DNA of 64,000 bases, taken from NCBI RefSeq assembly GCF_000708045.1, contig NZ_ANIE01000007.1, positions 372,001 to 436,000 on the forward strand, in the 5' to 3' direction. Below the pieces are notes generated by a model. The model did not search any database. It worked only from the letters and a program-made list of their open reading frames with translations, and was not told where the DNA came from. Shown piece by piece: positions 23,979 through 63,117 of this stretch. Both the position numbers and the translations under genes were made by a program. The first letter of the stretch is position 1. Each line of letters starts with the position of its first letter. The stretch is from Marinobacter nitratireducens. Its GTDB lineage: Bacteria; Pseudomonadota; Gammaproteobacteria; Pseudomonadales; Oleiphilaceae.

Positions 23979-24323
23979 ATGTCAGAAGCCCTGCGAAAAC
24001 TCCTTAAGGAAGGCAACGCCAACCAACCCACCGTCATCACCCCACACGTGGGCCTCCTGACCCTGCACTTCCAGCTCTATGGCTGTGAGGATCTGAAAGC
24101 CAAACGCAAAGCCTTCACTGCACTGCGCGCCATCTGGGGCAAAGAACCGGACCTCGCCGTATCGGAAACCGCCGACCAGGAAGCCCTGGACTGCGCGACT
24201 TGGACCGTCGCCGCCCTCGGCACCTCATCCCAACAGATCACCCAACGCCTGGACCAGGTCGAAAAAGCCATTGAGGAACGGATCGACGCTGCCATACTGG
24301 ATGTACACCGGGAAATTCTCTAG
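23979..24323 (+). CDS. DUF503 (YlxP-like) family protein
   Basis: 114 residues starting at the ATG at 23979. HVGLLTLHFQLYGCEDLKAKRKAFTALRAIWGK and the C-terminal AAILDVHREIL fit the DUF503 pattern (LTLxLxIxxxxSLKxKR ... LIDVxxEIL), small ferredoxin-like proteins often near ribosome-binding factor genes. About 20 residues precede the usual domain start. No ribosome site is obvious; the right arm of hairpin repeat copy 2 ends 16 bp upstream and may influence expression. Confidence 0.75.
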   Translation: MSEALRKLLKEGNANQPTVITPHVGLLTLHFQLYGCEDLKAKRKAFTALRAIWGKEPDLAVSETADQEALDCATWTVAALGTSSQQITQRLDQVEKAIEERIDAAILDVHREIL

Positions 24324-54305: not shown

Positions 54306-54331
54306 CCGCGACAGGTAACTCTGACAGACAC

Positions 54332-54359
54332 AAAAAAAGGCAGCCGAAGCTGCCTTTTT
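54332..54359. terminator. Bidirectional terminator between the hydrolase and cold-shock genes
   Basis: AAAAAGGCAGC-cgaa-GCTGCCTTTTT, perfect stem with A- and T-runs on either side, serving both convergent genes. Confidence 0.88.
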
Positions 54360-54385
54360 GGCGGTTGCGCCTGAATCCAAAAGGA

Positions 54386-54592
54386 TTACAGAGCTACAAC
54401 ATTCTCCGCCTGAGGACCTTTCTGGCCCTGGGTAACGGTGAACTCAACCTGCTGGCCTTCTGCCAGGGTTTTGAAACCGCTGCCCTGAATAGCGCTGTAG
54501 TGAACGAATACGTCCGGGCCGTCTTCACGAGTGATAAAACCAAAGCCTTTCGCTTCGTTGAAGAACTTAACAGTACCGGTAGTAGTAGACAT
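54386..54592 (-). CDS. Cold-shock domain protein (CspA family)
   Basis: 68 residues from ATG 54592; AGGAAG seven bases upstream. RNA-binding motifs RNP1 KGFGFI and RNP2 VFVHYS are intact in the single cold-shock domain. Single-stranded nucleic acid chaperone; whether cold-induced or constitutive cannot be told. The 260 bp up to crcB shows no recognisable cold box or ORF. Confidence 0.95.
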
Positions 54593-54852
54593 ACTTAAAC
54601 TTCCTGAAATCAATCATTTAATCTGTGACCGGCCCCGATCGTGGAGCAAGTCAGCCATTACGGAAATACAGAACTCGCGGAATCAAAAACAGGACGGTCA
54701 CTACTTACTACGAAGGTACGTCTTATTCATGAATTGCTTTGCTGAATCTTTCCTACACAAGTCACTCTACTCTGGAATTCGGGGCTTGCCAAGCGGATTT
54801 TCAATAATTTATGTAGGTATAGGTACCCACGTTGGCGGTGGCCCCAAAAGCA

Positions 54853-61630: not shown

Positions 61631-62035
61631 ATGGCATCCCTCAATCAACACGTTCGAACCCTGCTGAATGCCCGCGCACTGTGGCGGCTGGCATTATTGG
61701 TTTCCGTCGCAGCCATTGTATATCTGGCCACTACGAGCCAGAGCTACCCGATTCCCGCTTCCGCAAACGACAAGGTCAATCACCTGATTGCCTTTCTGGA
61801 GCTGACACTGCTGACCCGCCTTGCCTGGCCGGAACTCAAACCCTGGTGGTTTGCTCCCGCACTGCTGAGCTTTGGTCTGGGTATCGAAATGGTGCAGGCC
61901 AACCTGCCCTACCGGGATTTCTCCCTGGCAGACCTCGCCGCCGATGCCGCCGGAATAGCAATCGGTCTGCTGCCGTGGCCGTTCTTCAAACACATCACAA
62001 AACAGCCTTTAAGAAATTCGCCCAACTCCCTGTGA
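61631..62035 (+). CDS. VanZ-like small membrane protein
   Basis: 134 residues, three to four membrane helices; the motif pattern NDKVNHLIAFLELTLLTRLAWP and YRDFSLADLAADAAGIAIGL (an acidic face between helices) matches the VanZ-like domain. Function unknown. Its stop codon overlaps a GacA/UvrY-like box. Confidence 0.75.
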   Translation: MASLNQHVRTLLNARALWRLALLVSVAAIVYLATTSQSYPIPASANDKVNHLIAFLELTLLTRLAWPELKPWWFAPALLSFGLGIEMVQANLPYRDFSLADLAADAAGIAIGLLPWPFFKHITKQPLRNSPNSL

Positions 62036-62048
62036 GATATATCCTACA
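62031..62048 (+). promoter_or_regulatory. GacA/UvrY box upstream of a CsrB-type RNA
   Basis: TGTGAGATATATCCTACA fits the GacA consensus TGTAAGN6CTTACA at ten of twelve positions. Its centre is about 178 nt before the predicted RNA start, the distance known for GacA-controlled small RNA genes in Pseudomonas. Confidence 0.75.
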
Positions 62049-62202
62049 ACATTGTGCGAACTTACAGTCCTGAAGCGTGCGCGGGCTCAGCCTGCCCCCA
62101 ATTGATTTCGCCTAACCTGTTGATACAGATATTTAATTGAGTAACTGACCATTTACCCACCGGAAACGACGTGCATACGTCACAAGTTTGTAAGGAATCG
62201 GC

Positions 62203-62211
62203 TGGTATATT
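62203..62211 (+). promoter_or_regulatory. Extended -10 promoter of the small RNA
   Basis: TG-g-TATATT is an extended -10; a -35 at standard distance (near 62183-62188) is weak, as expected for an activator-dependent promoter. Just upstream lies a perfect inverted repeat GACGT-gcat-ACGTC (62168-62181). Confidence 0.65.
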
Positions 62212-62216
62212 GTTTT

Positions 62217-62448
62217 CAGTCAAGGATGACAGGGAAAGGGACGACGCACTGGATGCACCCCGGCAAGGATTAGCAGGGAGAGGCAGGGACACAGGGACGC
62301 CTCGCTTTAGGGACAATATTCGGATGGCCGGCTCGGAAGCCGGCACCAGGGAGCGGCATAGGGAACTCGCAACACGGCTGTTGCCCAATGCGCAAGGACG
62401 CGCCGACCTGTTTCGATTAGGGTAGCCTCCGGGCTACCCTTTATTTTT
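62217..62448 (+). ncRNA. CsrB/RsmZ-family regulatory RNA sequestering CsrA/RsmA
   Basis: Untranslated transcript of about 230 nt. Fourteen GGA motifs lie between 62224 and 62398, many as AGGGA or AAGGA, the CsrA-binding signature; one sits in the loop of a perfect hairpin GCCGGCT-cgga-AGCCGGC (62328-62345 region). It ends in a strong terminator GGGTAGCC-tccg-GGCTACCC plus T-run (62420-62448). A GacA-like box lies upstream. The RNA would titrate CsrA/RsmA and switch motility, biofilm and storage genes. No plausible protein gene occupies this stretch. Exact 5' end is inferred. Confidence 0.9.
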
Positions 62449-62457
62449 GCCCGGACC

Positions 62458-63117
62458 TCACGACGACTCCCCCGCCAGATAGATTCTCACCTGATTAAAT
62501 TCCTCGAACTCATTCAGATCCGGCCAGGTACGGGCCTCGATAACGGTCTGCAGGGCGTACCGATCATCGTTCAGGTTTCGGACTCGCGAATCCGCCAACA
62601 GCACCCTCGGGGCTGAGGATCGGAACTGCGCCAATAGCGGACGGTTTTCCGGGTCGTAAAGCACATCGGCGGCGGTAATGACGTCGAGATCGTCGGGACG
62701 TTTACTCCAGTCTTCACAAAGAGTAACCCGCACACCATTCAGTTCGGCATTGGCGGCCACCGCATCCAGAGCCGCCAGATCGATATCGCAAGCAATCACT
62801 TCCCGGGCTCCGGCCTTGGCAGCAGCAATAGCAACGATGCCTGACCCGGCACCGAAGTCCAGAACTGTTCGGCCAGAAACGGATTGAGGATTTTCCAGAA
62901 TCCAGCGAGCCAGTACCTGACCACTGGCCCAGCAAAATGACCAATAGGCCGGTTCCGCCACCACCGCCTGGGCCTCATCGTGACTCAGCGGCCCTTCCAG
63001 AACCGAGGGATCAAACAGGTAGAGCGCCAACTGAGGGCAACCCGCCGGCCGGGATTCCGCAACCCGGCCCCGACTGAGGGTTTTCTGTAACTGGGCATCG
63101 AGGCGTTCAGGTGTCAC
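62458..63117 (-). CDS. Class I SAM-dependent methyltransferase, ETFB/PrmA-like
   Basis: 219 residues from a GTG (GGAGATTCTC upstream). SAM motif [20 protein letters not shown], acidic motif II ACDID, motif post [16 protein letters not shown], resembling METTL20-like lysine methyltransferases (electron-transfer flavoprotein beta, or ribosomal L11). Substrate cannot be assigned from sequence. Its stop is ten bases after the end of the convergent small RNA terminator. Confidence 0.85.

Follow-up and report, generated by a model that had tools for sequence, protein, structure and literature searches.

A predicted CsrA-sequestering small RNA gene of Marinobacter, unrecognised by Rfam and preceded by a csrB-like promoter region

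The described systems closest to the locus studied here are the Csr/Rsm small RNAs of E. coli, Pseudomonas and Alteromonas. According to excerpts of PMC4682653, the box of E. coli csrB is TGTGAGAGATCTCTTACA, it lies at -183/-182 and is a UvrY site, and IHF is required for optimal UvrY binding and activation of csrB. In Pseudomonas, a GacA-type palindrome lies upstream of RsmX, RsmY and RsmZ, as it does in Marinobacter (PMC2375449, in excerpt). The marine gammaproteobacterium Alteromonas has three RNAs, Aln1a-c, which excerpts of PMC5864184 present as transcriptome-shown analogs of CsrB-C/RsmX-Z with A(N)GGA motifs, and which are likened to the Marinobacter RNA by description only. Among the literature matches listed, none describes a Marinobacter Csr/Rsm RNA. 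CsrA-regulating RNAs are reportedly the subject of a computational prediction paper of 2006, and such a prediction may already be listed there.

We examined a stretch of 64,000 nucleotides from Marinobacter nitratireducens (the window). Judged from its sequence, 62219-62448 on the forward strand is very probably an unannotated small-RNA gene, predicted to soak up CsrA. The CsrB/RsmZ-like RNA is about 230 nt long and carries 14 GGA motifs, its 5' end being placed from the -10 element and conservation. That an unannotated RNA lies here had been proposed in a preliminary description of the sequence, and the proposal is supported by the GGA content, the distance to an upstream box, a terminator, the lack of a conserved reading frame, genus-wide conservation and the presence of partner genes.

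To locate the box we scanned with TGTAAG-N6-CTTACA, which we take to be the GacA/UvrY box consensus. The putative 18-bp box TGTGAGATATATCCTACA (62031-62048) has the form TGTGAG-N6-CCTACA, with two mismatches to this pattern, and is the best of 13 matches in the window with up to three mismatches. Because these 13 loose matches are close to the number expected by chance (a mean of 10.2 in shuffled sequences), the evidence for the box rests on its place and its conservation. Both were followed in aligned Marinobacter loci; 34 were examined, and one (L034, genome G026) was left out as shortened, which leaves 33 including that of the window. The aligned box stands 169, 170, 171 or 173 nt before the RNA in all 33 (170 nt in the window), and has at most three mismatches in 30 of them, the others having four (L013 and L032) or five (L031). 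An 18-base GacA/UvrY-like box about 178 nt upstream, as previously described, is thus present and holds its place throughout. It overlaps, again as described, the end of a gene on the forward strand (61631-62035; an open reading frame listed from an earlier TTG), which the preliminary description had named VanZ-like and whose stop codon (62033-62035) falls inside the box. By tblastn, all 32 other Marinobacter loci have a VanZ-like gene upstream of and next to the RNA, and a methyltransferase-like gene lies downstream of the RNA in 26 of the 32.

Two further elements lie between the box and the RNA. The sequence TAACCTGTTGATA (62113-62125), a putative IHF site, exactly matches the complement of WATCARNNNNTTR, which we take to be the IHF consensus. 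At this alignment column, 25 of 33 loci have the match with no more than one mismatch, 15 of them without any, and 8 lack it; anywhere in the spacer, a match within one mismatch occurs in 27 of 33 loci (8.9 in shuffles) and an exact match in 15 (0.46 in shuffles). A scan of the region with the sigma-70 consensus returned no promoter, and the extended -10 element TGGTATATTG (62203-62212, forward strand; commonest form in the genus, TTGGTATAGTG) was recognised by conservation, with a mean column identity of 92% in the -10 region as against 57% in the spacer between it and the box.

The plan of this promoter region closely follows that of E. coli csrB. The gap between box and RNA is 173 nt in E. 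coli K-12 and 170 nt in the window, and the exact IHF consensus starts at -105 and -106, respectively. A partial second box repeat, TGTGCGAAC (62053-62061), follows the box by 4 bp, as compared with 5 bp in E. coli csrB (PMC4682653, in excerpt). The densest 180 nt hold 14 GGA motifs in E. coli CsrB and in the Marinobacter RNA alike, although the former (RF00018) is 369 nt long with 22 GGA and the latter about 230 nt with 14. RsmZ has fewer GGA motifs. The Marinobacter model gives E. coli csrB a score of only 11.3 bits, and the window contains no Rfam CsrB match. On this one comparison, the sequences suggest that the switch has been kept more strictly than the RNA, the promoter plan being csrB-like while the RNA itself goes unrecognised.

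A CsrA-sequestering RNA would be expected to carry GGA motifs beyond chance. Between 62214 and 62448 on the forward strand we counted 14, the first at 62224 and the last at 62396, a number reached by 5 of 5000 dinucleotide shuffles. The longer motif AGGGA occurs 8 times in the same interval against a shuffled mean of 0.85, and none of the 5000 dinucleotide shuffles reached 8. Together these counts bear out the earlier claim of a dense stretch of 14 motifs. A density of 10 GGA per 180 nt was also found at three other places on the forward strand of the window, near 24132, 25179 and 31986, where AGGGA occurs 0, 1 and 1 times. In every one of the 33 aligned loci the RNA has 13-16 GGA.

Several of these motifs are placed in hairpin loops by a consensus fold of the 33 loci, which has 33 pairs with 98% of cells paired. 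Seven pairs show changes on both sides, compared with a shuffled mean of 2.3 and with none of 500 shuffles as high. Three of these pairs lie in a hairpin at 62258-62278 with GGA in its loop, two in the hairpin GCCGGC-TCGGAA-GCCGGC at 62327-62344, also with GGA in its loop, and two in the hairpin GCAAC-ACGGCT-GTTGC at 62369-62384, whose loop has no GGA. A short hairpin, CGC-AAGGAC-GCG (62390-62403), again presents GGA in its loop and is found in the consensus fold only, being absent from the single-sequence fold. The single-sequence fold is ordinary (z of -1.08; 25 of 200 shuffles fold equally well), and loop presentation is read from the consensus fold and its pair counts. The preliminary description was right that GGA is presented in a loop but counted one such motif, whereas the consensus fold gives at least three. 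At its 3' end the RNA has the strong intrinsic terminator that had been described, with a 9-bp stem and a T run (62419-62448). Because, according to the scan, 0.8 sites of this kind would turn up in the region by chance, the evidence for the terminator rests on conservation: a terminator-like hairpin is present in 32 of 33 loci, L005 being without one.

Conservation also bears on how the RNA might act. The GGA columns are 95% identical and the rest of the RNA 81%, and none of 5000 random triplet sets was as high, figures to be read with the caution that tests on 33 related sequences are not independent trials. The 81% identity of the non-GGA columns is what might be seen in a small RNA whose main action is to pair with mRNAs and whose GGA motifs are incidental. 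We regard this as improbable, since the GGA triplets are more conserved than their surroundings, several of them sit in loops, and the promoter plan is that of csrB.

An open frame of 84 codons (62171-62425) runs through the region, and the preliminary description had warned that it might be mistaken for a gene. Read as the gene of a small protein, the frame stops within 50 codons of the aligned start column in 29 of 32 relatives; one other (L016) keeps a similar reading of 82 codons without a start codon at that place, and the other two long readings (L020 and L033) are shifted into other peptides. Conservation, moreover, tracks GGA triplets and hairpins. We therefore rejected the coding reading, which is very unlikely to be correct, and treat the RNA as non-coding.

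The predicted CsrA-sequestering RNA is not recognised by Rfam. No Csr/Rsm family was matched in the window at the gathering score, CsrB, CsrC, RsmY and PrrB_RsmZ included, or in 61950-62550 at E<=10, while the control, E. coli csrB, scored 380.4 bits. For Pseudomonas, the comparison consists of this lack of RsmY/RsmZ matches in the window and of the search of the order with model R1 described below. A separate Rfam match in the window, to the cspA thermoregulator, lies at 54331-54776 on the reverse strand (83.5 bits; gathering score 78). At E<=5, 20 of the 32 other Marinobacter loci gave 11 listed matches. The one with the lowest E was to CsrC (RF00084) in L022, a weak match of 21.2 bits (E 0.028; gathering score 61 bits) that covers part of the RNA; the others were to other families. 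At E<=1, 15 further loci gave two matches, both far below gathering: CsrC over the RNA of L089 (16.7 bits), and CsrB at 2258-2630 of L160 (17.9 bits), on a GGA-rich stretch directly after a match to our own model R1 (see below). Sub-threshold CsrB/CsrC matches were thus seen in 3 of 35 related loci scanned, within or directly beside GGA-rich RNAs. The preliminary description had proposed an Rfam search and had listed 'no model hit' among the outcomes that would speak against it, and literally this was the outcome in the window. Rfam families, however, are bound to sequence. By its sequence, the RNA is predicted to work like CsrB, yet it is no member of the Rfam CsrB, CsrC, RsmY or PrrB_RsmZ sequence families.

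Genes for the three partner proteins are present in the genome. CsrA has one match, a 65-aa protein that is almost identical to the solved homolog 1vpz along a stretch of 58 residues, and its gene adjoins lysC, an aspartokinase-like gene. One response regulator, taken as GacA, exceeds the NCBI UvrY cut-off (302.6 bits against 280) and adjoins a uvrC-like gene. A 973-aa frame with a single sCache_4 match and a receiver match is the GacS/BarA-like sensor, the kinase being assigned by its sensor domain and receiver match only. The names lysC, uvrC and, below, comEA were given by eye. In another study, csrA is up in a Marinobacter (PMC10516948, in excerpt).

The elements, how they are spaced and conserved, and the three protein genes are direct observations, and with them we hold with high confidence that 62219-62448 and its upstream elements form a Gac/Csr output gene predicted to act through CsrA sequestration. 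The activities in this scheme, from kinase activity, GacA binding and IHF action to transcription and the binding and sequestration of CsrA, are inferred from E. coli and Pseudomonas. A GacS/BarA-like kinase would phosphorylate GacA, which would bind the 18-bp box, whose centre lies about 179 bp upstream, and IHF would bend the DNA that separates this box from the promoter. Transcription would proceed from the extended -10 to the terminator and yield an RNA of about 230 nt. The 14 GGA motifs of this RNA, of which several sit in hairpin loops, would bind several CsrA dimers and pull CsrA off its target mRNAs. The complete Gac/Rsm output gene that had been claimed is supported in all parts that sequence can address.

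The RNA has a defined range. A DNA search found it in 33 of 36 other Marinobacter genomes and in none of the 21 genomes searched from other families in the order, and a pattern of the promoter and 5' end found 47 loci, all 47 in Marinobacter. With strict filters, R1, a covariance model of the 33 Marinobacter sequences, had matches in 20 of 390 genomes searched across the order, of which 16 belong to Marinobacter, 2 to other genera of the family and 2 to neither group. The last two, at the E limit of 0.01, are probably chance matches, and there was no strong match outside the family among the 390. Within the family, R1 matched 153 of 163 genomes and 14 of 16 genera. In Marinobacter it matched 121 of 124 genomes (counted from the listing), including three shortened copies (G026, G482 and G502), and found nothing in G456, G004 and G033, the last being 62% complete.

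The link to VanZ extends into the rest of the family. Among 16 genomes examined from other genera, 12 have a VanZ match, and in 9 of these 12 an RNA match immediately follows VanZ in the same orientation (G533, G389, G442, G525, G423, G420, G534, G428 and G425; the G534 locus, L162, was left out of the locus anatomy). In G437, locus anatomy places an RNA with 16 GGA and a perfect box downstream of VanZ; in G438 the VanZ and RNA matches are on different contigs; and G527 has a VanZ match and no RNA match. G438 has four R1 matches, three of which are listed head to tail within 570 bases (G438:C7:6739-7307), possibly as tandem copies. In G389, L089 (G389:C1:4015513-4015711) is a second R1-like RNA, away from VanZ and with no upstream Gac box within three mismatches.

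The VanZ-linked RNA is damaged in five genomes (L150-L154, corresponding to G456, G004, G502, G482 and G026), which form one clade in the VanZ tree (100/100). In G026, G482 and G502 the box is still perfect and the ends of the RNA remain, but only 4 GGA are left; G456 has a perfect box without the RNA, and G004 has neither; VanZ stays in all of this clade. That retention, together with the 170-nt gap that holds its own conserved Gac box, IHF site and extended -10, makes it most unlikely that the RNA, although VanZ immediately precedes it in the same orientation, is no separate gene but a 3' tail that the VanZ-like mRNA gains by read-through.

Besides this predicted Gac/Csr output RNA, a box-pattern search of the clade genomes and the window's own genome (G000) led to another GGA-rich RNA, with 11 GGA, in G456, G004, G502 and G026, where it begins 57 nt after a perfect box. 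R2, a model built from the second RNAs of these four genomes, had matches in 115 of 163 family genomes, namely 114 of 124 Marinobacter (counted from the listing) and one other, among them all five genomes with a damaged first RNA. In the window's own genome it matched G000:C4:154068-154262 on the reverse strand (L219, 1469-1663, reverse strand; 56.3 bits), so that the first RNA is not, as had been considered, a single copy. The second RNA was missed at first because, on its own strand, its box does not follow the pattern used in the scan, and because R1 falls short of it. R1 scores R2 RNAs at 9.3-18.5 bits in the five clade genomes and at 7.0 bits in our genome, and R2 scores the window's RNA at 7.6 bits over one hairpin. 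The start TCA(A/G)GGATGA is common to both RNAs, in 25 of 33 R1 loci and 31 of 31 R2 loci. The gene comEA lies downstream in all 31 R2 loci examined; 23 of them have a box of at most three mismatches with its end 57 nt upstream of the RNA, and 8 have none. The window genome's own second RNA carries 13 GGA within 200 nt, and a search for an intrinsic terminator between it and comEA found none. Elsewhere in G456, four Gac-box-like palindromes (L177, L179, L183 and L188) lie within about 130 bases (G456:C43:3065-3195), with no GGA-rich stretch after them.

A joint reading of the two RNAs, which we offer tentatively and consider rather doubtful as a whole, is that Marinobacter has a two-RNA Csr set, unrecognised by Rfam, with promoters of two designs: one csrB-like, beside VanZ, with an IHF site and its box at 170 nt, the other short, before comEA, with the box at 57 nt. 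The second RNA would perhaps be a comEA leader that ties Gac/Csr to DNA uptake, and one clade would have shed the first RNA stepwise and would rely on the second. If this were true, the clade would be a natural experiment in regulatory-RNA turnover.

On its sequence, the first RNA is ordinary in kind, well supported and unrecognised by Rfam; its promoter plan is remarkably csrB-like, and the case of its loss is informative. Marinobacter, a widespread marine genus, thus gains a candidate Gac/Csr output, and the case shows that a predicted regulator conserved throughout a genus can escape annotation by Rfam. In the clade whose copy is shortened or absent, redundancy among Csr RNAs can be tested directly.
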